Shown here in pieces: positions 12,523 to 48,996 of a stretch of 64,000 nt of DNA (the stretch's first letter is position 1; every line of letters begins with the position of its first letter). Location: assembly GCA_017428765.1 (NCBI GenBank), contig JAFRQF010000026.1:1-64000 (forward strand), given 5' to 3'. The position numbers and the translations under genes are program-made. Under the pieces are notes generated by a model, which was not told where the DNA came from, searched no databases, and was given only the letters and a program-made list of their open reading frames with translations. The DNA is from Erysipelotrichaceae bacterium. Its GTDB lineage: Bacteria > Bacillota_I > Bacilli_A > Erysipelotrichales > Erysipelotrichaceae.

Positions 12523-12596
12523 GGTTCCTTAGCCAAGTGGTAAGGCAATAGACTGCAACTCTGTGATCACCGGTTCGAATCTGGTAGGAACCTCCA
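12523..12596 (+). tRNA. tRNA-Cys(GCA)
   Basis: A cloverleaf with acceptor GGTTCCT/AGGAACC, anticodon GCA in ACTGCAACT, a GGTTCGAAT T-arm, and encoded CCA. Confidence 0.96.
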
Positions 12597-12601
12597 GCAA
12601 T

Positions 12602-12687
12602 GGGGATGTGGCGGAATGGTAGACGCGAGGGACTTAAAATCCCTTGGTAGAAATACCGTGTGGGTTCAACTCCCACCATCCCCACCA
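12602..12687 (+). tRNA. tRNA-Leu(TAA)
   Basis: A class II tRNA with a long variable arm, acceptor GGGGATG/CATCCCC, anticodon TAA in CTTAAAA, and encoded CCA. An 81-bp gap without a recognisable gene separates it from tRNA-Pro. Confidence 0.96.
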
Positions 12688-12768
12688 CTCTTTGCAGTGA
12701 TTCTGTGCTGCGCCAAATGCTCAACAGGCACGTTCTGCTGAGTGAATCCAACATTAGATCTCTCGTAT

Positions 12769-12845
12769 CGGGATGTAGCTCAGCTTGGTAGAGTGCTTGA
12801 TTTGGGATCAAGATGTCACAGGTTCGAATCCTGCCATCCCGACCA
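12769..12845 (+). tRNA. tRNA-Pro(TGG)
   Basis: Acceptor CGGGATG/CATCCCG, anticodon TGG in TTTGGGA, and encoded CCA. Confidence 0.96.
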
Positions 12846-12864
12846 TATTTGTTAGGCGCATGAT

Positions 12865-12941
12865 GGCGAGGTAGCTTAGTTGGCTAGAGCGATCGGTTCA
12901 TACCCGGTAGGTCGTGGGTTCGAGTCCCACCCTCGCTACCA
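12865..12941 (+). tRNA. tRNA-Met(CAT), elongator
   Basis: The anticodon is CAT in TTCATAC. The body (GGCGAGGTAGCTTAG start, GGTTCATACCC stem-loop) resembles Bacillus elongator tRNA-Met rather than the initiator. CCA is encoded. Confidence 0.9.
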
Positions 12942-12948
12942 CTTATTT

Positions 12949-13025
12949 GGACCCTTAGCTCAGTTGGTCAGAGCTACCGGCTCATAACCGGTTGGTCGAA
13001 GGTTCGAGTCCTTCAGGGTCCACCA
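12949..13025 (+). tRNA. tRNA-Ile2(CAT)
   Basis: The anticodon is CAT but the body (GGACCCTTAGCTCAG, GGCTCATAACC) matches the Firmicutes tRNA-Ile whose C34 is converted to lysidine by TilS. It therefore probably decodes AUA. Acceptor GGACCCT/AGGGTCC; CCA is encoded. Confidence 0.85.
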
Positions 13026-13035
13026 ATTAACTCAT

Positions 13036-13126
13036 GCAGGAGTACCCAAGTGGCTGAAGGGTCCGGTCTTGAAAACCGGTAGGTCATGCAAGTGGCGCCT
13101 GGGTTCGAATCCCAGCTCCTGCGCCA
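13036..13126 (+). tRNA. tRNA-Ser(TGA)
   Basis: A class II tRNA with a long variable arm, acceptor GCAGGAG/CTCCTGC, anticodon TGA in TCTTGAAAA, and encoded GCCA end. Confidence 0.96.
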
Positions 13127-13133
13127 TTCACAT

Positions 13134-13210
<77 letters not shown>

Positions 13211-13212
13211 AT

Positions 13213-13288
<76 letters not shown>

Positions 13289-13298
13289 TTTGATTGAA

Positions 13299-13431: not shown

Positions 13432-16400
13432 CTACATCTTGTTGATATTGGCCATGATTTTAGCAACCTGGTTCTTTGCATCACTCATGTCGGTGACACC
13501 TTTTAAAACATTGCTGTAATCAACCTTTTTACCGGAGATCGTGTTGTTTGCATTGATCTTCTTCAATACATTAATCAGCGCCTTTTTCAACTTCACAATC
13601 TGCTGCTGTTCCTTCTTAGATGTGGTTCCAGAAGAAGAACCGGATGATCCGTTTGAAGATCTCCCGGAAGAATTATAACTTGTGTTTTCCAATTGTACTG
13701 TCTCCCCTGTGCCAAAGTCCTGGCCAAACACTTTCTTATATGCCGCCGCTAGTTTCTCATATGAGTAACCGTATACTGTTTTGGTCAAACCAAAGTCTGA
13801 AGGCTTGAGATCGTTCTTCTTGATGTATTCATATACATCATCAAGAAGCCCCGCATCTGCATAAGCATCTGCAACTGACAGCGCTTTTGAATTACTTACG
13901 GTTTTTCCGTTTTCATCTTTTACCGCTGTAGCATTTGCGTTTGCAAATTTTAATGCAAGCTTTTCCTCATCGGATAAGTTCATCTCGTTTATCCTCTCTG
14001 CAAGAGCCCCGGAATAATAAGAGTCATACAGATAGTTTTGAGACTTCGCATCCAATCCGGAATTGCGGATCGCGTTTATCGTCGCAGCCTTATAGTCTGC
14101 CGTTTCACCTTCCGGCGTATCCGCCTTGATATCCTTGCGAATATTGGCGATCGCATTCTTGGTGTAGTAGTAATCGCTCTTCTGATCGGCATTGAGGCCG
14201 AGTGCATCCAGATCGCTTTCCTTATCTTGCTCAGATTTGGTCCATTCATCATTCCCGTTCTTGTAATATGAGATTCCGTTCACACTGCCGTAATAGGATC
14301 CCATATCAATTTGATCGTATGTATCTAAGCCAAGTTTCGCCAGGTCATCGATCTTGCGCTGAACTTCCCTTGCTTTATCGTATTTCTGAGCATCCGTCAA
14401 AGAATCATCTTTATAGATGGATCTTCTTTCCGCATACAGATCATTCATCTGTTTTTGGATCGAATTGATATACTTGCTGGCAAGTATAGATTCATCTGAC
14501 GCGTGTTCTTTTTGAGCCATCGCCGTTAGTTCCTCATCAAGAGTAAAGAAATCGGTCACATCCTGGTTCTTGAAAACACTGTCGGTTGTAAACTTATCGA
14601 CCACAGGTGACAGAAGCGCACTGGTGGCTTTTCCTCTTAAGGTTCCATCATCCAGTCTTGTTTCCGCCTTCTGCGTCAGCATTGGAAGAATCGCATCTCC
14701 TGCTCCTCCTGAATACTGATCAATCAGATAATTAATCTTCTTCGGTGAATAATTCAGCTTTTCCCCAAGCCAGATTGAAATTAGATCGGTCGATTCATCA
14801 TACTGATCGGCAGGATCTTTTTTCTGCATATAGGTCGATACGATCGGATCGCCATACCAGGCTTCGTTCTTGACCATCTGCATCACCGGCGAAAGGATAT
14901 TGTTGCCTCCGACATCATTGATACCTATCTGTTCCCAGACATTCAGCAATGAATCAAGAGTATTCTCCCATACCTTTTTCGCTTTCTTCGCAGCAGAATC
15001 ATCGCTTGCAAGTTCGACGCCGTTTTCATAAAGCCCGGTCATAATTCCCTGATATGCATTGGCGATTCTGCCCTTAGGGATTCTGACGAACTTGCCATCG
15101 TCGTACTTCCAGAGTATGTAGTAATTATCTTTGATATAGTCTGACAGTTTGTCATAGTCCTCGTCATCCTTGTGCAACAGCCCATTGAGGATTACAAGAG
15201 GAATTCCGGAAAGAAGCGTCGCCTTTGTCATATAAGAAACAATGCCCTTCCAGCCTCTTGAATCATACGCGTCCTCGATGTTTCTGATCTGTTTATCAAA
15301 ACCCTGGATTGATGCGTTAAGGAAATTGAAACCGTTGCGGTTGAGCCACTTGGCGTAATCACCACCTCGCTTGAAATTGGTGGTAACTTCAGCAGCGTTG
15401 TACATCGCTGCCTCGATCGAATCGCCATGATCAAGAGAGGACATGAATTCCGCAAGTCTCGGTGCCATTTCTACGAGCTGGTTGAACTTTACGAAATTGC
15501 CGATCGTTGCATTATAGAACTTGCCATGATCGTTCTGATTGACTCCGGCCTCGGATGAATATGTCTGGTATTCACCGCCGTTGGCCTTGTAGATTCTTGC
15601 CATCTGGCCGTTTGTGATCAGCTCTTTATAAGCTCTTGGCAGGTTGAAATACGTGTCTCTTGCATACTTCGAATTGAAACCGATGTCCTGGAAGTCTTTG
15701 AAACCGTTGGTCAGCCAGAACACCGGGTTTGCGCCGGTGATCATATTTGTCCTAAGTTTCGTAGCCCAAGCCACAAACGGAACATTTGCCGGCAGATCAA
15801 ACGGAGTCTGCGTAGGACCGAGAGCATCGTAGATATGTGCCGGGATTTCAACGATGTGCCGATCGCCCTGTTCATACCATATTAATGTTGCTGGCGTATA
15901 TTCGTCTGCTTCCTGTACCACCGCTTCTTCGCCTTGAATAATGTTTTCATCAAAGCTTCGATCTTCATTGAAAAGATTCGTTGGAGAACGGGAAGCTCTG
16001 ACATACTCTTTTGCAAACTTGTTGAATAACGAAGATTTGTAGATCTGTTTCGTGTGTTCAGCCATTGCATAATCCAAAGGCTGAATCGGGCTTGAACCGC
16101 CTGTACGCTCATACAGCGTTCCTTTATTGGAACTAGTTACCTTCGGATCTGCTGTTTCCAAAACACTTCTTTCATCCACTTTTTCCATGGCTCGTTTTGT
16201 CGGAACATAATGCGGATACATCTCTTTCCATCTGTTAGCAGTTTCCTGGCTGATAACTCCACTATCCACTTGCCTTTGAAGCAGAACATCGTTGAAGTCA
16301 TAATACTTTTGGGCTATGTTCTTCCATTCCGGATGAAGCAGCTCATACTGATTTACGATTTCCTGCGACTTGATCGAAGGGAATCCAAAGAAGACGTCCT

Positions 16401-19400
16401 TGCCAATCTTGGCAGCATCCACATTGTGCGCATGGTACATGTAATAGTCAAAGTCGTTCTTCTCGTTTGCTGGTATAAGCTTAGAGATGGACACAAGACT
16501 ATCACTTAGTTTCTTACCATTCTGATCATAAATTCCGTCAAGGATAGCTTTGTTAGCCATATTTTCAGAACTGAGCAGATAATCGTAAGAATCGGATAGT
16601 TTTCTATCTTTCATATCCCGGATCGCTATGCCCTTGTCAAAGATCTTCTGTCTGACTTGATACAGGATATCTTTCATGCTTCTGAGAGGCTTTTTCTTCT
16701 CGACGTCTTTAAGGACCTCCGGAACCTGCTCTTTGGCATTCTCGATCGTCAGTCCTTTCAGGACTTCTTTTTCCATAAGGTCCAGAGCTTCCGGCGCATA
16801 GTTTCCTACAGCCGCTTCTTCTGCCATCTTCTGGATCGTTCCATCCGGGTCTTCTTTGATCAAAGCTTCCAGGCTTTCTGTGCTTAACTTATAGAGATCT
16901 TCAATAATCTCTCCAGTCTCCATATCGTACTTGATCCCGTTTAATGTTTGAGAAACAGCATTTGAGTCACCTGTCGCATCTTCATAGACCAATCTGTCGA
17001 TCAATCTGCTTTCATCCGCATTCAAAATATTGGCAACATCCGCCGTTGTTCCATATTCATCCAGGGTTTCGTTTTCGATAGAATCTCTCAGATACTCGAT
17101 CGTTTCGTTTAGCTTTCTGCTGACGATCTGATCAAATTCCTCCTCAGTCAAATCCCCCATATCAACCGGATTCATGTATAAATATTTTTCGCCAAGGCTC
17201 TGGATGTAATCCCTGATAAAATTCTTTGCATCCAAATATGAATTGCCGACAATAGAATTGTCTTCGTCCAATATATGGTATTTATCATTGATTTCGGCGA
17301 GAGTCTTATCCCATCCATCTTTGCGCAGAAAATTACCTCCCATTATTTCTCTGATTCCTTGAGCAACTTCATATGCTGGATTTGGAATCTTTGAGTAGGA
17401 AGACTCTATAACTTTTTCTCGAAGCGCATCATAACTATCAGTTGAGATTTCCCCGTTGTTTCTGATGTCGTCAATTATATTTTGTATTTCCTGTTTAAGG
17501 CTCACCCTTCTTGTCTTGTCCTGGAAAGCATCACGAAGCTCTTTCCTTGCGACAGAGTTCAGTTCATCAAAACTGACGCCTTTAGAAAATTTCAGGTTGT
17601 CTAAATTGTTTATCTTATTAGACCTGTCACCTTCAATCTTCGGATCATATTCAATCGTATTGATGCCCAGACTGGAAAGCCTTTGCTTCAAAACTTCACT
17701 TGAATCATTTGGAATAACAGCTGTTTGAATCTCATTTGGTGTAACAATTCTTCTAGGCTTTGCCTCGAAGTATTTTGTCGCCATCTTACTAAGCGGTTCT
17801 TTGAGTTCATAGATATCATCAACGATTTTCGACCAATTATCATCACTGATCTTCATGTATCCAAATTCCTTCTTGGCATACGACAGCATAGCTTCTTTGT
17901 TCGATCTTTGAATGATTTCCTGAATCGCATCAGAAGCATCACCAAAATAGTCAAAATATGGATCTCTTTTTGATTCTTGACTATCAATAATTTCAGAAAT
18001 AACCTGTTGCGTTCTTTCCTTTAAAGCATCATATGAGGCTGTGGCTTCTTCAGAATTGACATCCTGGATCATATCTTCATTCGCAATAATGTCGTTAATG
18101 GAACTGAAAACCTTCTTTTGCGTTGCTGCGATACTACCGAATGTTGATCCCCCAAATACGCCACCTTGTACACCTCTGGCTTCATCTTTGGATTCTTTAA
18201 GCATGTATTTAAGAATATTGTCAAGGTTATAGTCATAATGAAGCTGTTTGAAAGATCTTCTGCCGTTGTTTGTCAGATAGTCTTTGCCATTATAAATTCC
18301 ACTTTGAACTTCAACATCCTTAAACAGGTTTCTCAGCCAGTTCATGTAGTCTTCTTGATTTTCGACCTCAAATCTAGCATTGTTTTCTACTCTCATGGCT
18401 GCGTTAGGATCGTTGATCAGCTGTATCATTTTGTAACAAAGGTTATCAAGACTTGCAAAATACAAACCTTGAGTATTTGGGTCGATGTCTCGTTCGTTAA
18501 TCAGAGAATCTCCAAACTTCTGGGTGTTATATTCAGCAAGAGCATCCGTTACCTCTTTAGCAAAACCCTCCGGTCTGTTAGACCATCCATCTTTAATCGT
18601 TTCAGCGCCAAGCTTATTAATAATGTATCTCAATCCATCATTATCGGTACGAGTAGACAGATTAACTTCGCGCATAGGCATGGAAATCTCTTGGCCGTTG
18701 TTGTTCATATACAGGTATTTCAAAGAATTACTGTCTTTAAATGCCTCAGCTATGTCACCATTTGTATCTCTGATCGCTTTAGATAAAGCGTCCGGATCTT
18801 CGATTTTATATAAATCGTTATCAAGATCTCGAAGCATTTTTCTATCAAAGCCATTCATCTGTTCTAAAGCACGATAAACATTTCTAAGCTCTTTGCTGTC
18901 AACATCGTAATCAACAGAAGGATACGTTACAGTCCAAGCATCGCCGCCATATACTTTGTTTTTAGATGATTTAGGATCGATCGTTGATTTGTCAAACACA
19001 AGCGAGATCTTACCGTAATCTTCATGGCTCATGGAGTCTTTGCTTATCGCAATGGAAGGCATTGCAAAACCGCCTAAATCTAATGATTTTAAAAGGTTTT
19101 TCTCATTCAAATTATGAACGGCCAAAAGATCTTTTCGTCTGCCAAGATCTTCTAATTTAAGTCCTTTAGAAAGCTTAGTTATCTCTTTCTTGACTTTGGG
19201 ATCCATATCTGAAATACTAGAAATAGCAGAAGGCAAGTAGTCGTTGGACAATTGGAGTCCTAGGATTTCTTGCACAATCTGCTTTTTTGTTTTCCCAAAA
19301 GGATAAATCTGCTTGTTTTTTGATAGAACGTTATTGAAATATCTAATAAAACGATCTTTTCCATACATACTAGTCACAAAATTTGTATCAATAGATACAT

Positions 19401-22317
19401 TGTTATAGTAACCAGTGCCGCTTGGCTTAATCGAAACAATAATAGCTTTGCCGTTTTTGTCGGTAGCCCTTAGTATAGCAACAATGGAATTGTTATGACT
19501 CTGGTACACTGCGATCGGATCATCCAGAAGACGAGGCAATGCACTTATCACCCTTGCTGAAACATTGTGCTGGTTCCCGCTTCTGCCAATTCCCAATCCG
19601 CTTTTCACATGATTAACTGTCATCAGCATCGGGAGCTGTTCATAGCCAGCCAAAACCATCCAATCAGGAGAAGTGCCTCTGACTTCTAAAGCGTTTGAAC
19701 TATCGTTGTATGAGCCTTTTTCGATTAGTTTTACTAAATCGCCAAATTCCAATCCCTTGCTGTAGGAAATCCCGTCTTCCAAAGATACTCTGTTATCTTC
19801 CGCGTCTTTAAAAGCTTTCATAAAATTGTGTTCAATGCTTCCTACGGCATCAGAGAAGCCCAAAAGATGTTTGACATCTTCGTAGATCCTCGTGGCAAGT
19901 GAATTGCTGTATTTTACCATACGATCAACAAACTGCATGTTTTCAAGAAGGCCTTGTGACGCAATTGCGACGAGCTCTTTTTCAGCTTCCGAATCTGAAA
20001 GGTTCTGAATTGTAGAGTATTTTCTTTTAATAACTCCGATCGCAGTTTCGTAGTTGTCGCCCATATATTCTTCCACAGATTCTCTGAGTGCAGAATAATA
20101 CTTTGATGCCTCCATGCCGTGAGTATACTCATGCAGCATTGTTGATAATGCGCCTTGTTTGGCGTTCGGATTAATAACCGTCCTGCCGTTTATATATACT
20201 CCATCAACGATATCTCCATCAGCATCCACTAAGTTCGCGAAAGATACTTTCCTTCCCAACGATTGAGCGTATTTCGCTGTGATGCTGGTATTGACCTTTG
20301 CTTCCGGTGATAAGCTTTCATAATCAACAATATCCATATCGATGTTCTCTGCCGCCAATCTTTCTCTACCTTGAGCATAGAATTCATCTGTTTTCTGAAG
20401 CATCTGTTCCTTCAGTTCAACGATCGGCTCAAGTTTTGCAGTAAGATCGGTCTGAGCAAACTTCAGCATTGTCTCTTCGTTTTCCTGAAGGGAAGTGTTG
20501 ATTACATCGCTGTCAGATGCCGAAGTAAAAGCCTTCGCATATGGATTCCGCGTTTCATAATCACTGATCATTTGATTGATTTGGTCGATCTGAGTTCGAA
20601 TATAAGCCTTGTCATTTGAATTGAAAGCAGACGAGTTCATCATCTGATGGTAAGTTTCTTTGATAGATTGCATCTGATTGACATCCTTTTTGGTATCGAT
20701 CGTTAAACCTACTAGTCCGGCTCCTCCGCCAAGCATTCCTCCAAGGCCACCGATCAGCATCTGATATCCGATATCTTTTGCGTCGAGACTGTCGAAGTAT
20801 TCCTTCATCGTCATTCCACGGCCTTTAAGAATGATCGAATCAAGAAGCGGATCGATGGTTGCCTCGGTACCTTCTTCAATAGCTTCGGATCCAAAGGATT
20901 TCGCAAGATGTTTCATCGTATATCCAATGAGGTTTTTTGTCATTTCCTGGCCAGCCTGCGTAGAGAAAATTTCAAAGAACGTTTCACCACCGATTCTTTC
21001 CGTTGTGTCAGCAAGCGCGGCGGCAAAACCAGCACTCTCTAAAGATGTCCAGAAATCATACCCTTCGTTCATCCTGTTTTTGACCGTAGATCCGAATATC
21101 GACATGTCGCTATACAGTAAAGCTTTGTCGCTTATCGCTTTGCTGACAGTTTCGCTGGAGCTCATATCGGCGAAGCTCGCTCCTTTTGTAGCCATGGCTA
21201 GAGCCACAGAATAAAGATAATTCGCTTCGGATGTGTAGATCTCCTGGATCGTCCTTTCGATGCCTGTGGCGCCCTGCCTTGCGTTCTGTAAGAGCTGTTC
21301 CGAATTGTCTATGACGTAATTGCCTATAGAGTTTGGATCATTGGCATCGTAATCTACACCTAAGAGGTTGCTCGCGGCTGCATACAGGCTTTCATAGCTC
21401 TTTGCCATAGATCCTGCGTAGTTCTCCAAGGACCCGCCAACGGTCGCAAGAAGTCTCTCCAAACCGTTATAATCCTCAGCTATGACGTAATTCTTGAACT
21501 GGTTAAGTTCTTCCTGTGTCGCTCCTTTTTCGTTCAGCTGATTATAGTAAGAGGTATATAAGAGCCTGTTCTGATCAGCTTGAATGTTTTCAAGTTCATC
21601 AAGTTGTGCCTTCAATTCTTCACTTCTTGTTGCTGGATTTGCCATTTGCTGTTTGACCTGTTCGATCTGGTCGGTATAATCGATCAGATTGCCATCCTGG
21701 TCCATTAACTTCTGAGCATATGTCTGATCCGACTTGATTTTCTCAGTAACCGGAGATACGCTTGTGAGTTCAGCGAAACGATCATCAAGCTGTTCCTGCT
21801 GATAGTCTTTAAGAACGCCAGTCACTTTCTTTTGTGCTCCTTGAATGATCGGAGTAGTTTTTTCAACAACGCCCTGGATCGGGGTCGACATGCCGGCCTC
21901 TCTTCTTGCTTTATTGAAAGAACCCATTATATTAGAGAACGCAGCCGCTCCCTTTACAATACTGTTTCTGATTTCTGCGCCGGCATCATTCACTTGCTTT
22001 AAAGTGATGTTTGCTTTCGGAGAATTCCCGCTATATGAATTGTTGCTGGAATCGCTGATAAAGGGCTGAGAATAAGACTTCTGTTTCGTAGCGCTGTTTC
22101 TAATGACAGAACTGTTATTCTTCAAGGAAGATGTGTAGGGCTGATTATATGCTTTTACAGTCTGCCTCTGAGCACCGGAATATGTACTGGTATTTCTGTT
22201 TTGATTTGAAGAACCAGCACTGGAAGTATACGGACCCGCGCTGTTGCTGCCAGAAGACAGGCTTCCTTTTCCTTTTTCTTTCAAATAATCATAGATTTTC
22301 TCAAAAATATTGGCCAT
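13432..22317 (-). CDS. Giant phage polyvalent protein (peptidase, MuF_C-like, LPD38-like)
   Basis: This 2961-residue protein takes up a quarter of the prophage. The N terminus (1-110) is Ser/Asn-rich and low complexity. A zinc-peptidase HEYTH motif lies near residue 730. Residues of about 890-1030 resemble the MuF C-terminal/PBECR-like domain of phage effector proteins (MLMTVNHVKSG, LPRLLDDPIAV, VAILRATDKNGKAIIV). A large-polyvalent-protein segment (PSIAISKDS ... GKISLVFDKSTID) follows at about 1085-1110. Residues of about 2190-2340 resemble LPD38 (NMITGANPVFWLTNGFKDFQD). Such proteins are thought to be packaged in the capsid and injected with DNA, combining protease and effector modules. It is the last gene of the late operon. 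Domain calls are from memory of families, and the overall function is inferred. Confidence 0.8.
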   Translation of the reverse strand: MANIFEKIYDYLKEKGKGSLSSGSNSAGPYTSSAGSSNQNRNTSTYSGAQRQTVKAYNQPYTSSLKNNSSVIRNSATKQKSYSQPFISDSSNNSYSGNSPKANITLKQVNDAGAEIRNSIVKGAAAFSNIMGSFNKARREAGMSTPIQGVVEKTTPIIQGAQKKVTGVLKDYQQEQLDDRFAELTSVSPVTEKIKSDQTYAQKLMDQDGNLIDYTDQIEQVKQQMANPATRSEELKAQLDELENIQADQNRLLYTSYYNQLNEKGATQEELNQFKNYVIAEDYNGLERLLATVGGSLENYAGSMAKSYESLYAAASNLLGVDYDANDPNSIGNYVIDNSEQLLQNARQGATGIERTIQEIYTSEANYLYSVALAMATKGASFADMSSSETVSKAISDKALLYSDMSIFGSTVKNRMNEGYDFWTSLESAGFAAALADTTERIGGETFFEIFSTQAGQEMTKNLIGYTMKHLAKSFGSEAIEEGTEATIDPLLDSIILKGRGMTMKEYFDSLDAKDIGYQMLIGGLGGMLGGGAGLVGLTIDTKKDVNQMQSIKETYHQMMNSSAFNSNDKAYIRTQIDQINQMISDYETRNPYAKAFTSASDSDVINTSLQENEETMLKFAQTDLTAKLEPIVELKEQMLQKTDEFYAQGRERLAAENIDMDIVDYESLSPEAKVNTSITAKYAQSLGRKVSFANLVDADGDIVDGVYINGRTVINPNAKQGALSTMLHEYTHGMEASKYYSALRESVEEYMGDNYETAIGVIKRKYSTIQNLSDSEAEKELVAIASQGLLENMQFVDRMVKYSNSLATRIYEDVKHLLGFSDAVGSIEHNFMKAFKDAEDNRVSLEDGISYSKGLEFGDLVKLIEKGSYNDSSNALEVRGTSPDWMVLAGYEQLPMLMTVNHVKSGLGIGRSGNQHNVSARVISALPRLLDDPIAVYQSHNNSIVAILRATDKNGKAIIVSIKPSGTGYYNNVSIDTNFVTSMYGKDRFIRYFNNVLSKNKQIYPFGKTKKQIVQEILGLQLSNDYLPSAISSISDMDPKVKKEITKLSKGLKLEDLGRRKDLLAVHNLNEKNLLKSLDLGGFAMPSIAISKDSMSHEDYGKISLVFDKSTIDPKSSKNKVYGGDAWTVTYPSVDYDVDSKELRNVYRALEQMNGFDRKMLRDLDNDLYKIEDPDALSKAIRDTNGDIAEAFKDSNSLKYLYMNNNGQEISMPMREVNLSTRTDNDGLRYIINKLGAETIKDGWSNRPEGFAKEVTDALAEYNTQKFGDSLINERDIDPNTQGLYFASLDNLCYKMIQLINDPNAAMRVENNARFEVENQEDYMNWLRNLFKDVEVQSGIYNGKDYLTNNGRRSFKQLHYDYNLDNILKYMLKESKDEARGVQGGVFGGSTFGSIAATQKKVFSSINDIIANEDMIQDVNSEEATASYDALKERTQQVISEIIDSQESKRDPYFDYFGDASDAIQEIIQRSNKEAMLSYAKKEFGYMKISDDNWSKIVDDIYELKEPLSKMATKYFEAKPRRIVTPNEIQTAVIPNDSSEVLKQRLSSLGINTIEYDPKIEGDRSNKINNLDNLKFSKGVSFDELNSVARKELRDAFQDKTRRVSLKQEIQNIIDDIRNNGEISTDSYDALREKVIESSYSKIPNPAYEVAQGIREIMGGNFLRKDGWDKTLAEINDKYHILDEDNSIVGNSYLDAKNFIRDYIQSLGEKYLYMNPVDMGDLTEEEFDQIVSRKLNETIEYLRDSIENETLDEYGTTADVANILNADESRLIDRLVYEDATGDSNAVSQTLNGIKYDMETGEIIEDLYKLSTESLEALIKEDPDGTIQKMAEEAAVGNYAPEALDLMEKEVLKGLTIENAKEQVPEVLKDVEKKKPLRSMKDILYQVRQKIFDKGIAIRDMKDRKLSDSYDYLLSSENMANKAILDGIYDQNGKKLSDSLVSISKLIPANEKNDFDYYMYHAHNVDAAKIGKDVFFGFPSIKSQEIVNQYELLHPEWKNIAQKYYDFNDVLLQRQVDSGVISQETANRWKEMYPHYVPTKRAMEKVDERSVLETADPKVTSSNKGTLYERTGGSSPIQPLDYAMAEHTKQIYKSSLFNKFAKEYVRASRSPTNLFNEDRSFDENIIQGEEAVVQEADEYTPATLIWYEQGDRHIVEIPAHIYDALGPTQTPFDLPANVPFVAWATKLRTNMITGANPVFWLTNGFKDFQDIGFNSKYARDTYFNLPRAYKELITNGQMARIYKANGGEYQTYSSEAGVNQNDHGKFYNATIGNFVKFNQLVEMAPRLAEFMSSLDHGDSIEAAMYNAAEVTTNFKRGGDYAKWLNRNGFNFLNASIQGFDKQIRNIEDAYDSRGWKGIVSYMTKATLLSGIPLVILNGLLHKDDEDYDKLSDYIKDNYYILWKYDDGKFVRIPKGRIANAYQGIMTGLYENGVELASDDSAAKKAKKVWENTLDSLLNVWEQIGINDVGGNNILSPVMQMVKNEAWYGDPIVSTYMQKKDPADQYDESTDLISIWLGEKLNYSPKKINYLIDQYSGGAGDAILPMLTQKAETRLDDGTLRGKATSALLSPVVDKFTTDSVFKNQDVTDFFTLDEELTAMAQKEHASDESILASKYINSIQKQMNDLYAERRSIYKDDSLTDAQKYDKAREVQRKIDDLAKLGLDTYDQIDMGSYYGSVNGISYYKNGNDEWTKSEQDKESDLDALGLNADQKSDYYYTKNAIANIRKDIKADTPEGETADYKAATINAIRNSGLDAKSQNYLYDSYYSGALAERINEMNLSDEEKLALKFANANATAVKDENGKTVSNSKALSVADAYADAGLLDDVYEYIKKNDLKPSDFGLTKTVYGYSYEKLAAAYKKVFGQDFGTGETVQLENTSYNSSGRSSNGSSGSSSGTTSKKEQQQIVKLKKALINVLKKINANNTISGKKVDYSNVLKGVTDMSDAKNQVAKIMANINKM

Positions 22318-24582: not shown

Positions 24583-24894
24583 TTATTCCTCCTCTTCTAA
24601 CAATGTATCCGTAACCAAAGCGGTGTACATGACCTGAGCTTCGATTGATTCTTCCCACGTCGGAGGCTCCGGCTGTGGTTTTCCATAATCAACTCCGATT
24701 TCCCAGAATGTATCAAAATCCGCTTCGATTTCTTCCTTAGTGGCACCAGTAATAAAAAACACCTCGTCATATTCGAAGTGTTTTCCATACTCGTCATCGA
24801 TCTCAGCAATGTTCTTCGCCATACGGCATTCGCCGTTCGGAAAATTTATTACCGTTTCCGGTCTGATAGAACTGTTTACCTTTTCGTTTAGCAT
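24583..24894 (-). CDS. Small tail-associated protein, unknown
   Basis: This 103-residue acidic protein has a C-terminal motif EAQVMYTALVTDTLLEEEE nearly identical to the end of the protein at 28225-28527 (EAQVTYTALMTDTLIDVVEE). The rest is not similar. Such tails are common on short proteins encoded between fibre genes and xkdX; a chaperone or assembly role is possible. The start at 24894 has GAGGAG 10 nt upstream and overlaps the reverse transcriptase gene by 92 bp; an internal ATG at 24822 is an alternative without an RBS. It is not an Avd homologue by any visible feature. Confidence 0.7.
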   Translation of the reverse strand: MLNEKVNSSIRPETVINFPNGECRMAKNIAEIDDEYGKHFEYDEVFFITGATKEEIEADFDTFWEIGVDYGKPQPEPPTWEESIEAQVMYTALVTDTLLEEEE

Positions 24895-26086
24895 TCTTTC
24901 TTTTCTCCTCTACGCTGATCTTTTTCGCAGCATATTTGAATATCTTTTTCAGACAATACTTTTTCGAAACGTTTATTGAATTGGAATATAAAAAATAGCC
25001 CTTGTAGGAAAGGATACGCTGACACTGGCGCATCGTCAGAAACCCGCCTTGCGACTTGTATCTTAAAGCCATCCTTCTGGCTCTGATAAAATCTCTCCCT
25101 CTGATCTCGACGTGGCCTCCTGCATAAACAACATATCCCATCATATCAATAGGATCATCATTTATATCGTGGATCTGCCAGTTTGACTTTATGGTAAAAC
25201 CAAGTTCGTCCCAGAGGTAAGATTGAAGACCTCTGACAGCGCTTTTAAGTCGTTTTCGGTTGGACCCGATCAACAGCATATCATCCATGAAGATCAGCAT
25301 GTGTTCGACGCACTTATACCGTTTTCCCCGTCTTTCGTAGTGCAGATCTTTAACATATCTGTAAGCAAACGACAGCATATACTGAACGGCCCATTGTGAA
25401 ACAAGAGACCCGATCATGAACCCGGTATAACCCTCAACCTGATGCGATCTTAATAGGGATTCCCAGAGCCATAAGACATCTTCGTTTCCGCAATCCCTTC
25501 TAAAGAACTTGAGAAATGCTTCTATATCAGCCGATGGATAGCATTTTTCGATATCCGTTTTGACATGATATCTGCATTTTCTGATGTATCTTGCATTATG
25601 TTTTCTAGCATATCTTGCCGCATCATCGTCCTTATCGATCCATCCCTTGATCATTTTCATGCCATAGATCTGCCCTCTTCCTTTGATGGATGAGGCCTGT
25701 TCCGGAAGGATCCTGCAATCGAAGATCTCTTTTGCAGAATAAAAGGCAATATAGTCGAAGATCTGCTGCATCGCCGATTCCTTTCCTATCTGTCTTATCT
25801 TGCCTGTTGATTTGTCGATCTTGATGCGGATCTCCACTTTCCACAAATGAAGATCTCTTTGTTCGATCCTTGATACGCATTCCTTAGCAATCTTTTCAAT
25901 GATCGGATCGATCAGGTCTTTATCTTTGGTATAAGAAAAAAGATGATAATCTTCATTCGACATGCCGAACTTAATAAGAAGGTTCTTGAAGTCATAGCGC
26001 TTCACATGCCGGGAGATCACATCTTCGATCGCGGGAACCAGGTTGTTCCAGTCTCTGAGATTTACCTTTTTGCACTTACGTTTCAT
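24803..26086 (-). CDS. DGR reverse transcriptase
   Basis: This 427-residue reverse transcriptase has catalytic motif A VKTDIEKCYPS with Asp178, the DGR-type motif IGSLVSQ (225-231) in place of the retroviral or group II QG motif, and motif C FMDDML (266-269). The C terminus has LSYKGYFLYSNS, like the DGR thumb region. There is no RNase H, endonuclease or maturase domain. DGR RTs copy the template RNA with adenine-specific errors and drive replacement of the variable repeat. The template repeat lies 116 bp upstream and the target gene beyond it. The start has a poor RBS, so translation may be low. Confidence 0.95.
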   Translation of the reverse strand: MKRKCKKVNLRDWNNLVPAIEDVISRHVKRYDFKNLLIKFGMSNEDYHLFSYTKDKDLIDPIIEKIAKECVSRIEQRDLHLWKVEIRIKIDKSTGKIRQIGKESAMQQIFDYIAFYSAKEIFDCRILPEQASSIKGRGQIYGMKMIKGWIDKDDDAARYARKHNARYIRKCRYHVKTDIEKCYPSADIEAFLKFFRRDCGNEDVLWLWESLLRSHQVEGYTGFMIGSLVSQWAVQYMLSFAYRYVKDLHYERRGKRYKCVEHMLIFMDDMLLIGSNRKRLKSAVRGLQSYLWDELGFTIKSNWQIHDINDDPIDMMGYVVYAGGHVEIRGRDFIRARRMALRYKSQGGFLTMRQCQRILSYKGYFLYSNSINVSKKYCLKKIFKYAAKKISVEEKRKNAKRKGKQFYQTGNGNKFSERRMPYGEEHC

Positions 26087-26201
26087 CTTGTTTTTGCGAA
26101 CCGGCTTTCATTGCTTACTGACCGGCGGTATTCTCGCAAGCACCCTTTTGGGTTATTTCCTCCGCAGAGAGCATCCTGCAATGTGTGTGTTTGATAACTT
26201 A

Positions 26202-26312
26202 ACAAGTTTGCCGAGCCACGATGTTCCAGTTGGCGTTCGAGAGAGCGTTGTTGCCGTTCAAGTACGACAGGCCGCCGTTGGCAGTCCCGTTGTTCAGATT
26301 GCCGAACGCAAG
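26202..26312 (-). repeat. DGR template repeat (TR)
   Basis: This 111-bp repeat aligns without gaps to 26465-26575. Read on the minus strand it contains ten Asn codons (AAY), the typical adenine-rich template design, for example GGCAATCTGAACAACGGG. It has 26 adenines, 13 of which differ in the VR, while only one of the 85 other bases differs. It lies between the target gene and the RT gene and is not part of an expressed reading frame that I can support. Confidence 0.96.
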
Positions 26313-26370
26313 CCAAAGCACAGCCAAAGACCCAAAATTCATTGCAGAACCCTTTACATTTTATATTCCG

Positions 26371-26386
26371 TTTTTTTTTTTTTTTT
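26371..26386. repeat. 16-nt homopolymer T/A tract
   Basis: A run of sixteen T on the plus strand (A on the DGR sense strand) lies between TR and VR. It is next to, but on the wrong side of, the adjacent hairpin for a terminator on either strand. Confidence 0.95.
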
Positions 26387-26390
26387 GCAA

Positions 26391-26404
26391 GCCCCTTCCG
26401 GGGC
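26391..26404 (-). other. GC hairpin with GGAA tetraloop downstream of the VR
   Basis: On the minus strand GCCCC-GGAA-GGGGC forms a 5-bp GC stem with a GNRA-type loop, 30 bp after the target-gene stop codon. Known DGRs carry GC-rich hairpins or cruciforms with GRNA loops just downstream of the target gene that stimulate retrohoming. Function here is inferred from position and loop. Confidence 0.65.
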
Positions 26405-26434
26405 AAGGGAGGGGAAAATCCCCTCTGGACGTCT

Positions 26435-28228
26435 TTACGCCGTCCATTCACCCCTATTACCGTTACAAGATAGCCGAGCCACGATGTTCCAGCTGGCGAA
26501 CGAGAGAGCGTTGGTGCCGGACAAGTCCGACAGGCCGCCGCTGGCAGACCCGTGGTACAGATAGCCGAACGCAAGATATTCCCTTAAGCCGGAAGTCGTG
26601 TTCTGACCATTCTGGTAGAAACCATCTTTGTGATAGGTAGATGAAGATCCACCCACAAGGCACGGGAACAAGAAACCCTTATCGGATAAAGACTCTTTTT
26701 TGATGTATTGCCATCCATCTGCTGCTGCGATCTTCGGACACGTTCCTTCCAATGAATAATTGGCAACGGCGTTTTTAGAATGTTTCGAAAGATCGTTTAC
26801 GACATTTAGATAGTAATTGTCTGCATCCTGAGAAAGGATCACATCTGCAAGAACTTCGTTTCCACCCACGGAGTATTCGATGCCCTGCAGTTTCGCCGGA
26901 TACTTTCCATTATCTGGAGTAGCTGGCGAACCGTCGTTTCCAAGCACATTGTCGCATGTTCCATTAGGCCAGTGAAATGTCGAAATGATCGTATTGCCTG
27001 CGGTCTCTGTGCCATCACCGACCGTGTCGATATCTTCATCAGATCCTCTATCAAGGTTTAATGCGACATATGATACACCACCGATAGTGACCGTTTCTTT
27101 CGATATGACTTTGCATCCGGCCTGTCCGGAAATGTCATAGTTGGCAGCTGTATTTCTGTCTTTGGTTGTGCCGTTATAGGTGCCGATCAGGATCGAAGAT
27201 CCCTCGATGATGTTTGCCGCCTGTGCAGAAGTAAGAAGGACCCTTTTCACTCCTGTTTCACCTTTAGCAACGCAATACTGGTAATTGTAGTTTAAACAGC
27301 CCTGAAGAATACCGTCTGCGCTCAAGGATGCATATTTGACCATGAACATCATTTTCAGGAAAGTAAGATCGCAAAGACATCCTCCGCAAAGCCCGTTGTT
27401 CATGGAATTTTTCCTGTCGACCAATACATTCTGTGACATCCAAGCTGTAGGAATCGCTCCGGAATAGGACGTCAGTTTATTATCTACGACCTTGCTCATG
27501 TACTTTGAATGAAGGACCCATTCTCTGACAGAGCCATCCTGCTCAACCGCTTCCGGATAAGGAACGCAGAGGTCATATCCGTTCTGCATATGGGAAGACA
27601 CGCCGATCTCATATTCATTGTCTTTTTCGTTTCGGTAATAGAAACCGGACTGCTGCAAAACCCCGACAAGCTTCTCTGGATTATCTCTTTCAAATCCGGA
27701 AGTAATTCCATCGATCGCAGTGATAATCGGCCTTTTGCTTTCAGGATCGTACCGGAAATTACAGTCTACAACTGTGAAAAGCGGCAAGCCTTCATAATCG
27801 TCCGTATTTTTTTCACTGTTTGTGGAAGGAACACAGTTAAGACCGGCGTTGTCACCGGTCTTCATTCCGGTTGAAACGGAGGATTGCGCAGGTTGATTGA
27901 ACCTGACTCCTCCGCACCAGTAATCTCTGGTTGCTTTATACCATTGGTCGACCATTTCGGTAATGCCGATATCACTTTTGGCGTTTACACCCCTTAGATC
28001 GAACCATTTTTTCATTTCCTGATCATAGGAATCTTTTGTGCCATCAAATTCGAACTGGAAGCCTCCGCACTTCGTCCAAGAGCCATCCGGATCATAGAAA
28101 TAGGTGTCACCGGTATCCAATTCATGGAATAGTGAATTTGGATATACGTCTTCCGTTGGTTTGCTGTCTGTTGAACGACCCTGATAGGTGATATCACCGC
28201 TCAAATCGTATCTGTTTTGTGTAATCAT
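26435..28228 (-). CDS. DGR target: variable tail (receptor-binding) protein
   Basis: This 597-residue protein starts with a phage tail-type segment (DSKPTEDVYPNSLFHELDTGDTYFYDPDG), has a long middle region, and ends in a C-type-lectin-like variable domain: LFPCLVGGSSST ... REYLAFGYLYHGSASGG ... SWNIVARLSC. Residues 552-588 are encoded by the VR; changed positions are Y556, Y558, H559, S561, S563, D568, S570, T572, F577, S579, L586 and S587. Such domains keep the fold constant while surface residues vary, and in phages they bind host receptors. Its ATG overlaps the stop of the preceding small gene (ATGA). Receptor binding is inferred from DGR biology and tail-module position. Confidence 0.9.
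   Translation of the reverse strand: MITQNRYDLSGDITYQGRSTDSKPTEDVYPNSLFHELDTGDTYFYDPDGSWTKCGGFQFEFDGTKDSYDQEMKKWFDLRGVNAKSDIGITEMVDQWYKATRDYWCGGVRFNQPAQSSVSTGMKTGDNAGLNCVPSTNSEKNTDDYEGLPLFTVVDCNFRYDPESKRPIITAIDGITSGFERDNPEKLVGVLQQSGFYYRNEKDNEYEIGVSSHMQNGYDLCVPYPEAVEQDGSVREWVLHSKYMSKVVDNKLTSYSGAIPTAWMSQNVLVDRKNSMNNGLCGGCLCDLTFLKMMFMVKYASLSADGILQGCLNYNYQYCVAKGETGVKRVLLTSAQAANIIEGSSILIGTYNGTTKDRNTAANYDISGQAGCKVISKETVTIGGVSYVALNLDRGSDEDIDTVGDGTETAGNTIISTFHWPNGTCDNVLGNDGSPATPDNGKYPAKLQGIEYSVGGNEVLADVILSQDADNYYLNVVNDLSKHSKNAVANYSLEGTCPKIAAADGWQYIKKESLSDKGFLFPCLVGGSSSTYHKDGFYQNGQNTTSGLREYLAFGYLYHGSASGGLSDLSGTNALSFASWNIVARLSCNGNRGEWTA
26465..26575 (-). repeat. DGR variable repeat (VR)
   Basis: This 111-bp segment lies inside the 3' end of the target gene, ending nine codons before the stop. 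Compared with the TR it has 14 substitutions, 13 at template adenines; the exception turns TAC into GAC. The invariant 3' part (TGGAACATCGTGGCTCGG) probably includes the homing-initiation region. Confidence 0.96.
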
Positions 28229-28527
28229 TCATCCTCCTCGACAACATCTATCAGTGTGTCTGTCATTAAAGCTGTATATGTGACCTGCGCTTCAACAATA
28301 TCGAGCTGTGTCGGCTTTGCCGCTTCCGCTTCTCTTTGTGCAATGATTTCTGCTTTCTTTTCCAGATCTTCAATAAACTGGCCGTTTAAAAACTTTGTCC
28401 AACCTTCGCACGCGTCGGGATAGTCGGACATCTGGCCAACGAAATCTCCACCTTCAGAAACAACAGAAAAGCCATTTACATATCCGTTTTCATCGATACT
28501 GATTCTATATTTGTTAATTACTTTCAT
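28225..28527 (-). CDS. Small tail protein, possible fibre chaperone
   Basis: This 100-residue protein has an N-terminal beta-like region (KYRISIDENGYVNGFSVVSEGGDF), a central WTKFLNGQFIEDLEKKAEII helix, and the C-terminal motif EAQVTYTALMTDTLI shared with the 24583-24894 protein. It lies between the fibre gene and the DGR target gene with 1-bp and 4-bp junctions, implying tight coupling. It resembles small XkdW-type proteins in Firmicutes tail modules; a tail-fibre assembly role is plausible but unproven. Confidence 0.7.
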   Translation of the reverse strand: MKVINKYRISIDENGYVNGFSVVSEGGDFVGQMSDYPDACEGWTKFLNGQFIEDLEKKAEIIAQREAEAAKPTQLDIVEAQVTYTALMTDTLIDVVEEDE

Positions 28528-46599: not shown

Positions 46600-47727
46600 A
46601 TGCCCGTATATAAAGATAAAGAACGGAACTCCTGGTATGCTCGATTCAACTACACGGATGCCGAAGGTAATAAGAGATCGCTGAAATCAAAACGGTATCA
46701 GACGAAAGCAGAGGCCACAAAGAAGCTGGCGGAGATGCAGGTCGAACACCAGCAGGTCTCTTCCCGGATCACGTTCAATGATGCATTTGAAGAATATATA
46801 TCGGAACAAAGATCGAAAGTTAAGCCGACGACGCACATGCATTATCAGGCGCTTTATGATCACATTAAAGATGATCTCGGAAATGTAGTAATTGAGAAGC
46901 TGACAGTTCCCCGGTATAAAGCATTTAAACAATATTTGGACAACAGGCTTGTCGGCAAAGACAAGGATGTTTTAATGTCGACCTCCAGGAAGAATCGCTG
47001 CCATCGTTTTGTGAAGACTCTATGCCATCTTGCATATCAGAACCACGGAATCAAGAACGATGTCCCCGATCGTGTCGGCGGTTTTGTCAATCCGATCGAG
47101 ATAGAAGACGAGGATGAAGAGATCGTATTCCTCACGCAGGACGAATTTCAGAGCTTCCTGAAGGAGTTTGATAACGACATGGTTTATCATACCCTTTTCT
47201 CTGTTTTGTTCTTCCAGGGAATCAGGATCGGCGAAGCGCTGGCTTTAACGTGGAAAGACATTGACTTCGACAGGGAAATGATGAAGATCGACAAGACTTA
47301 TACCAGCAAGATCAACAGATCGTATCAGACCGGCGAGCTGTATATCACAAAACCAAAGACCAAGAAATCGATCCGCACCATCCCGATCGAGCAGTCAACG
47401 CTGGAGGATCTGAAGAAACTCAAAGGCTATTATTCTGCTTTTGAGGAGTTTGATGAATCCTGGTTTGTGTTCGGCGGGATCCGGCCGTTAAGTGAGACAA
47501 GCATTGCCAAAAAGAAAGACGACGCTTGCAGCGCCGCCGGTGTGACAAGGATCACCCTGCATCAGTTCCGGCACAGCTGCGCTTCCTACCTGTTTGAGAT
47601 CGGAGCAAAGCCAACGGCCGTGCAAAAGTATCTTGGCCATAGCAAACTGTCGACGACCATGAACATCTATACTCATCTGTATCCGGAAGATCTGATGAAT
47701 ATACACAAGAAAAAAGGAGGATTGTAG
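46600..47727 (+). CDS. int: Phage tyrosine integrase
   Basis: This 375-residue integrase has an AP2-like arm-binding N terminus (1-48, RNSWYARFNYTDAEGNKRSLKSKRYQTKAEAT), a core-binding domain (about 58-160) and a catalytic domain with R209 (FFQGIRIGEAL), H321-x-x-R324 (HQFRHS), H347 (LGHSKL) and Tyr357 (NIYTHLY). It should recombine attP with the tRNA-Phe 3' end. The repeat pairs at 13341 and 48853 are likely arm sites. Start 46600 follows AGGAG and is 9 bp after the repressor gene. Confidence 0.95.
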   Translation: MPVYKDKERNSWYARFNYTDAEGNKRSLKSKRYQTKAEATKKLAEMQVEHQQVSSRITFNDAFEEYISEQRSKVKPTTHMHYQALYDHIKDDLGNVVIEKLTVPRYKAFKQYLDNRLVGKDKDVLMSTSRKNRCHRFVKTLCHLAYQNHGIKNDVPDRVGGFVNPIEIEDEDEEIVFLTQDEFQSFLKEFDNDMVYHTLFSVLFFQGIRIGEALALTWKDIDFDREMMKIDKTYTSKINRSYQTGELYITKPKTKKSIRTIPIEQSTLEDLKKLKGYYSAFEEFDESWFVFGGIRPLSETSIAKKKDDACSAAGVTRITLHQFRHSCASYLFEIGAKPTAVQKYLGHSKLSTTMNIYTHLYPEDLMNIHKKKGGL

Positions 47728-47732
47728 AGAAA

Positions 47733-48686
47733 ATGGCAAGCGATAAGAAACTGTTGGTCGAAAGGCTGATTGACAAGAGCAAAGAAGCATTTATATTTGC
47801 AATCGAAATAATAAACCGGCCGACCGCAAAACACAGGACAGAAAACTTCGTTTTCAATTTGTGCAATGCGTGGGAACTTGCTATGAAAGCAAAATTGATC
47901 ATCGAAAATGGAGAGGCCATCATTTATCTAGATCATAAAAAAGATAGAACTATTTCTTTTCAAAAGTGTCTGGATCTTGTTTTTACCGACTATATGAATC
48001 CAGTAAAAAGAAATATCGAAGTCATCCAGAAACTTCGTAATAAATCTACTCATTTTATTACACCGGAATATGATGATCTATATCTTTCTGTTTATCAAGC
48101 CAACGTTATCTATTTTGCAGATTTTTTGAAAAAGGAATTTAACGTCGATATAAACAACGATTTGCCATCGAATTTTTTGACTATTGCTGCAAATCCGAAA
48201 GCGATCGATGACATTCGTTTCATAGAAAGAGTGGATGCGAAAACATTTGAAACTTTCCTAAAAGAGAAAAAGGAGCTGAAGAAATTAGAAATATCAGAAG
48301 GAATCTGTGTCTCTTTTGAAGTAAGAATGAAAAACGTAAAGAAGAACGAGGATTTCACATATAGAATAGATCCGAACGCAGATCTTCCTGCACAAATCAT
48401 TGAAAGAGTTATGGATCCAAGCAATTCACATCCTTACCGCATGAGAGATATCATCAAGCATATTGATTCCAAATTTGGTGTAGGAACCATCAATCAATAT
48501 AGCTTCAGAGCAATTAAATATTATGAAAACATTGATGACAGCACTTCTGAATTTGTTTATTATCACAAACAATCAAACAGCAAAACTTATTCACAGAAGT
48601 TTTTGAATCTTCTTATCAAAAATATATCTGATATTCCAAACTACATCGAATCCGCTATATCAAAATACAAAGAAGAAAAAAAGTAA
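47733..48686 (+). CDS. DUF3644 HEPN-like protein (probable defence cargo)
   Basis: This 317-residue protein has the DUF3644 pattern: SKEAFIFAIEIINRPTAKHRTENFVFNLCNAWELAMKAKLI, then RTISFQKCLDLVF and NPVKRNIEVIQKLRNKSTHFITPEYD. RNKSTH gives R102-x4-H107, the HEPN RNase signature. The C-terminal half contains a possible winged-helix region (DIIKHIDSKFGVGTINQYSFRAIK). Its position between int and attR is a usual place for phage cargo such as anti-phage systems. A convergent small RNA follows. RNase activity and defence are inferred. Confidence 0.8.
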   Translation: MASDKKLLVERLIDKSKEAFIFAIEIINRPTAKHRTENFVFNLCNAWELAMKAKLIIENGEAIIYLDHKKDRTISFQKCLDLVFTDYMNPVKRNIEVIQKLRNKSTHFITPEYDDLYLSVYQANVIYFADFLKKEFNVDINNDLPSNFLTIAANPKAIDDIRFIERVDAKTFETFLKEKKELKKLEISEGICVSFEVRMKNVKKNEDFTYRIDPNADLPAQIIERVMDPSNSHPYRMRDIIKHIDSKFGVGTINQYSFRAIKYYENIDDSTSEFVYYHKQSNSKTYSQKFLNLLIKNISDIPNYIESAISKYKEEKK

Positions 48687-48976: not shown

Positions 48977-48996
48977 TCTGGCCGGAACCACCATTT
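48977..48996. repeat. attR core
   Basis: This is a 20-bp exact copy of 13272-13291 (tRNA-Phe 3' end with CCA). The upstream tRNA part is absent, so this is the right prophage boundary. Confidence 0.92.

Follow-up and report, generated by a model that had tools for sequence, protein, structure and literature searches.

A probable complete diversity-generating retroelement in an Erysipelotrichaceae prophage and a conserved two-hairpin signal behind its variable repeat

A 64,000-nt stretch of contig JAFRQF010000026.1 of an Erysipelotrichaceae bacterium (assembly GCA_017428765.1), referred to here as the window, carries an integrated prophage with what is very probably a complete diversity-generating retroelement (DGR), composed of a reverse transcriptase (RT), a template repeat (TR) and a variable repeat (VR) in a tail-type gene. 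The RT likely copies TR RNA with errors at adenines, and the copy is predicted to replace VR at a site marked by two hairpins. A sequence-only reading had proposed a complete DGR in a prophage tail module, and the parts present, the adenine bias, a natural homologue of the target protein (P0121) and the RT matches all support this proposal.

An adenine-blind repeat search returned a single long direct repeat (26195-26312 and 26458-26575), ungapped and with its copies 263 nt apart, and so recovered the TR and VR given by the sequence-only reading (Table 1). Over 111 nt, the sense strand of TR has 26 adenines and 85 other bases and contains ten Asn codons, the same numbers as in the earlier count. 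In VR, 13/26 of these adenines differ (8 to T, 3 to C and 2 to G) compared with 1/85 of the other bases (T to G), which is a strong adenine bias (Fisher p = 4e-9). Read in the target frame, TR gives LAFGNLNNGTANGGLSYLNGNNALSNANWNIVARQTC followed by a stop, and VR gives LAFGYLYHGSASGGLSDLSGTNALSFASWNIVARLSC. The earlier tally of 13 adenine mismatches and one other therefore stands as a count, but two of the 13, which sit in the last 9 nt of VR (26465-26473), are to be set apart. There VR encodes Leu-Ser (LS) where TR encodes Gln-Thr (QT); because Leu586 is nearly invariant and Ser587 invariant in a 60-sequence alignment, and both are kept in P0121, these mismatches look like fixed site-marker differences, i.e. 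an end of VR resembling the initiation of mutagenic homing (IMH) site. Upon removal of the last 9 nt, 11/23 adenines and 1/79 other bases differ (p = 8e-8). A DNA search of the bacterium's own genome (2.4 Mb, 37 contigs) found no third copy of the repeat.

P0121 is a natural experiment that tests adenine-directed variation at the sequence level with unusual clarity. It is the one near-identical homologue among 120 listed of a total of 461 target homologues and shares 584/597 residues with the target. The 13 differences all lie within residues 556-582, and they affect 13/13 of the adenine-bearing TR codons and 0/21 of the other VR codons (last three codons excluded), each P0121 residue being obtainable from TR by altering adenines only. 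The sequence-only reading was to be abandoned if VR variation did not concentrate at TR adenines; on this one homologue, it did concentrate there. No VR comparison within the genus was possible, because 100 related genomes hold no match to the target, and the RT matches found in 4 of them are all at ≤28% identity. With the target as query, no relatives were found in the viral contig collection.

As in the DGR family at large, TR and the spacer between TR and the RT gene would be transcribed as one RNA, and the RT would copy the TR part mutagenically, with errors at adenines. The cDNA would then integrate, bounded by the 5′ homology on one side and by the IMH-like end of VR on the other, and replace VR, with an element of the form GGGGTGAA-hairpin-GAGGGG-hairpin marking the site of rewriting, and the resulting variants would be selected for host binding. 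The cassette likely keeps rewriting one patch of its tail-type protein.

VR ends 30 nt before the 3′-end of the target gene, and the predicted model of the target matches DGR variable proteins, among them TaqVP (5vf4) of Thermus aquaticus, which is placed in the C-lectin class in PMC6328139; the predicted fold is therefore of the C-type-lectin type. By sequence, the target has no match in PDB at E up to 1. The varied protein may be a receptor-binding tip, as the model suggests. Since the functional name of the target comes from weak tail matches and a predicted fold, it could instead bind something other than a host receptor, or be a minor tail component that plays no part in choosing the host, but we consider this rather unlikely.

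Relatives were scanned in 72 loci, consisting of the window, IMG/VR loci and four genomes, by a TR/VR search that forgives adenine mismatches. An adenine-biased pair was present in 55/72 loci, or 49 after 6 duplicates were dropped, where pairs were kept if TR lay downstream and the mismatches were at least 8 at adenines and at most 2 elsewhere; the other 17 loci lack such a pair, and several of them begin at RT. A second set of 54 pairs, from the signal scan described below, was defined by at least 4 adenine and at most 4 other mismatches. Totals were 739/1245 adenines and 23/4161 other bases in the 49 pairs, and 769 and 33 mismatches in the 54 pairs, but these are not unbiased rates, and the VR-TR order was part of the selection, because the pairs were chosen on these criteria. 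A plain repeat search, which carries no such bias, returned repeats of 111 nt (85%) in L008 and 108 nt (91%) in L010, directly before RT.

In two relatives, an identical 285-nt insert (L133:7324-7608 and L161:1547-1831) splits TR, whereas VR is uninterrupted. In both loci, the differences between VR and TR are confined to adenines (20/31 in L133 and 17/31 in L161; 0/108 others). Between the two VRs, 22/31 TR adenines and 1/108 other positions differ, although the 1000 nt of target gene upstream differ by 18.5%. Most simply, the insert would be an intron that is removed from the template RNA by splicing ahead of reverse transcription; alternatively, it may have spread recently into two phages that were already diverse. 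Core sequences related to the insert occur in at least 120 IMG/VR stretches, and one relative lies behind a frame in the gap before a helicase gene of Bacillus phage KLEB27-3. The end of that frame presumably encodes a helicase P-loop, and the termini are presumably like those of group I introns. No Rfam family explained the insert, and the open-access literature searched does not describe a TR with an intron. The split TRs are a natural experiment on the RNA intermediate.

Behind VR in the window lies an element (26411-26454) that folds as DNA with z -4.1 and contains two constant blocks and two hairpins. Across the 49 loci, GGGGTGAA is found ≤80 nt from the VR end in 42, with GAGGGG following in 41 of these and then, in relatives, a CCCC partner; the sense-strand copies of GGGGTGAA in these loci number 49 in 586 kb. 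Between the blocks, the stem varies in sequence and keeps its pairing: pairs 2 to 5 were Watson-Crick in 107/120 cases over 30 distinct stems, with 2/32 stems omitted, both under 14 nt, whereas 2000 shuffles gave 51 on average and never more than 69; related rows are unweighted in these shuffles, so that kinship is not controlled for. Conservation of the protein alone was considered as a cause, as GGGGTGAA is read in one target frame (R-G-E) in 36/42 loci, and was rejected because in 6/42 loci the block lies across or behind the stop codon, or in another frame. A GC-rich inverted repeat (GCCCCGGAAGGGGC) beside a sense-strand A run was also seen between VR and TR (26360-26420).

The full pattern occurs in 1/294 genomes of the order, at the window site. 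Scanning IMG/VR for the pattern only gave at least 120 matches, and 80 loci plus the window were examined (81 sites, partly on the same contigs as the first set). Among these, a DGR-type RT on the same strand is present at 58, an adenine-biased repeat at 54, at least one of the two at 63, and the stem at 70, so that a DNA scan by signal alone recovers DGRs at 63/81 of the sites examined; the median gap from VR end to signal is 16 nt (54 loci). The other 18 sites, with neither RT nor repeat, count against full specificity of the signal; the stem is missing in five of them, another part of the record carries an RT in two, seven loci end <1 kb behind the motif, and four are the GC-rich contigs taken up below. 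Among sites lacking a DGR, a whole-record test for RVT_1 was negative in all 14 records, which may be fragments. Two sites are of a mixed kind: L122 has TR, VR and signal with no RT found on its record, which may be a fragment, and L146 has a VR-like target end and the signal, but its locus gave no TR and its 57-kb record, maybe also a fragment, no RT. In a set of 14 phage records (13 obtained by RT match, and BPP-1), all but one, LBR48, yielded a TR/VR pair; the block stands behind VR in 3/13, while the exact form is missing in 9 other records and in the near-match MT835469 (AGGGTGAA).

By analogy with the hairpin behind VR in Bordetella phage BPP-1, where a hairpin of free sequence is required for retrohoming (PMC3240598), the element is most likely a retrohoming address. 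An alternative is that it acts in RNA, as a terminator, a stability element or a piece of the TR transcript. From its position between VR and TR it would be transcribed, the second hairpin looks like the stem of a terminator, and the pattern GGGGTGAA-stem-GAGGGG-CCCC also occurs in four GC-rich contigs (L098, L107, L113 and L142) with no RT and no adenine-biased repeat, where it is perhaps an unrelated intergenic repeat. However, the element is tied to the VR end rather than to TR, there is no T-run behind it in the window, and BPP-1 needs its hairpin at the same place, so we hold a role in RNA to be the less likely one by some way. None of the loci examined combined two VRs with a single TR. 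On balance, we lean slightly towards an address coded in DNA sequence and used by a large phage DGR lineage lacking the accessory protein Avd, in which GGGGTGAA and GAGGGG clamp a free hairpin and a GGGG/CCCC hairpin follows, ~16 nt past VR, with recognition of the blocks by sequence and of the hairpin by shape. If this is true, the address would find DGR targets from DNA alone. Moreover, the signal makes the choice of target by DGRs directly testable, as blocks, stem and second hairpin are separable. No description of the two-block signal was found in the text, figures aside, of the open-access literature searched.

The RT frame is intact and adjoins TR, and both motifs named by the sequence-only reading, IGSLVSQ and FMDD, are present in 24803-26086. 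In three comparisons, by profile and by fold (predicted model), the DGR RT of BPP-1 was the top match, and the motif IGSLVSQ compares with IGSLTSQ in BPP-1, whereas 7/8 group II rows have QGGxLSP and one row has neither. In the RT tree, the family is separate from group II RTs, which is a weak test because only one known DGR RT is included, on a long branch. Failure of the RT to place with DGRs, the second ground for giving up the earlier reading, did not occur, given the best profile and fold match to BPP-1 and with weak support from the tree. The TR-to-RT spacer is likely a structured RNA, since 11 pairs are predicted in 11 loci and 6 of them show two-sided changes. A second RT-like frame of 325 aa was seen in the same genome, beyond the window (G000:C27:29024-29629).

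Several results speak against a complete DGR or limit the case for it. A review (PMC10053308) describes Avd as essential and as encoded by most DGRs; in the own genome and the relatives searched, PF22296 matched 1/36 records, the BPP-1 control only, and PF05635 matched 1/35, only the phiARM81mr control and below its cut-off. Hairpin 1 of the window has a 6-bp stem and a loop longer than 4 nt, without the 4-nt GRNA loop that BPP-1 needs, the rule there being a GC-rich stem of 7-10 bp with such a loop (PMC3240598). Asp568, from the T to G change, is the only residue of VR that adenine changes in TR do not account for. The weakest part of the target model includes residues 559-561, within VR, and P0121 is the sole near-identical homologue, known as protein and not as DNA. 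Judging from the sequences, the cassette apparently does without Avd. An Avd concealed in the N-terminus of RT, whose model opens with four helices, was considered and rejected, because BPP-1 RT aligns over the same region (its residue 2 to residue 1 of the model; 323/328 residues aligned). Short frames between VR and TR in the long-spaced loci L052, L061 and L062 were also tried, and neither PF22296 nor PF05635 matches any of them. In L070, the frame between VR and TR has 170 aa and is RNase H-like by eye.

The missing Avd, the loop that departs from the BPP-1 rule and the fact that the system is known from sequence alone would suit a frozen remnant, in which diversification of VR belongs to the past and the RT, or else its RNA, has stopped working. 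This is very improbable, as the RT frame is intact with its SQ and FMDD motifs, and rewriting must be recent on the scale of the gene because P0121, otherwise near-identical, is changed at every adenine-bearing codon. That a retron, group II or defence RT stands beside a chance repeat, which the common fold of several RT classes might suggest, deserves hardly any credence given the adenine bias (p = 4e-9), the first rank of a DGR RT in three comparisons and the SQ motif, which is like that of BPP-1 and not the QGGxLSP of 7/8 group II rows.

The region is an integrated prophage of about 35.7 kb, because att repeats at tRNA-Phe enclose phage genes, with host murB outside. Within the repeats are the integrase, terminase, P22-like portal, major head protein, holin, a CHAP-domain protein and a 2961-aa polyvalent protein (13432-22317) with MuF_C, PBECR5 and LPD38 domains, a content that suggests a podovirus-like phage. 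The MurB protein is 97% identical to one of a metagenome-assembled genome named Erysipelotrichaceae bacterium. A DUF3644 gene (47733-48686) lies between the integrase and the right att repeat, and two small genes flanking the RT-target pair (24583-24894 and 28225-28527) have a common C-terminal motif with 14/28 residues identical. The att site is in the last of eight tRNA genes in an array (12523-13288), and a TPP riboswitch is located at 1308-1395.

Table 1. Features of the DGR and its prophage in the window
Feature	Position	Strand	Evidence or remark
Template repeat (TR)	26202..26312	-	Repeat search, TR/VR alignment, genome DNA search
Variable repeat (VR)	26465..26575	-	Repeat search and TR/VR alignment
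VR end with fixed differences from TR, putative IMH-like marker	26465..26473	-	Conserved Leu586, Ser587; TR has Gln-Thr
DGR reverse transcriptase, 427 aa	24803..26086	-	phrog_1423; matches in PDB by profile and by fold
TR-to-RT spacer, likely structured RNA	26087..26201	-	Conservation across an alignment of 11 loci
DGR target gene, 597 aa, tail-type variable protein	26435..28228	-	
GGGGTGAA block	26447..26454	-	Constant block 3′ of VR
Hairpin 1, contains target stop codon	26426..26446	-	Compensatory stem changes in relatives
GAGGGG block and hairpin 2 (GGGG/CCCC)	26411..26425	-	
Left att repeat	13272..13291	+	3′-end of tRNA-Phe (13213-13288); 20-bp exact match to 48977-48996
Right att repeat	48977..48996	+	Host murB outside
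Prophage integrase, tyrosine recombinase	46600..47727	+	PF00589, phrog_1

The cassette itself is one more phage DGR, a known kind of system. DGR clades 1, 4 and 6 of gut Firmicutes phages (Roux et al. 2021, PMC8144416) are likewise phage-borne, with a tail-type target, a C-terminal VR and adenine bias; the available part of that report does not describe the two-block signal of the present locus. Compared with TaqVP, the target has 12% identity, and its first 81 residues are unmatched. In the BPP-1 DGR (mtd-avd-TR-brt; NC_005357), avd sits between VR and TR, whereas no Avd was found here. Moreover, BPP-1 has one hairpin with a GAAA loop, whereas the present element has two hairpins together with the constant GGGGTGAA and GAGGGG blocks, which, if they serve as an address, would make up a richer code than the single hairpin of BPP-1.
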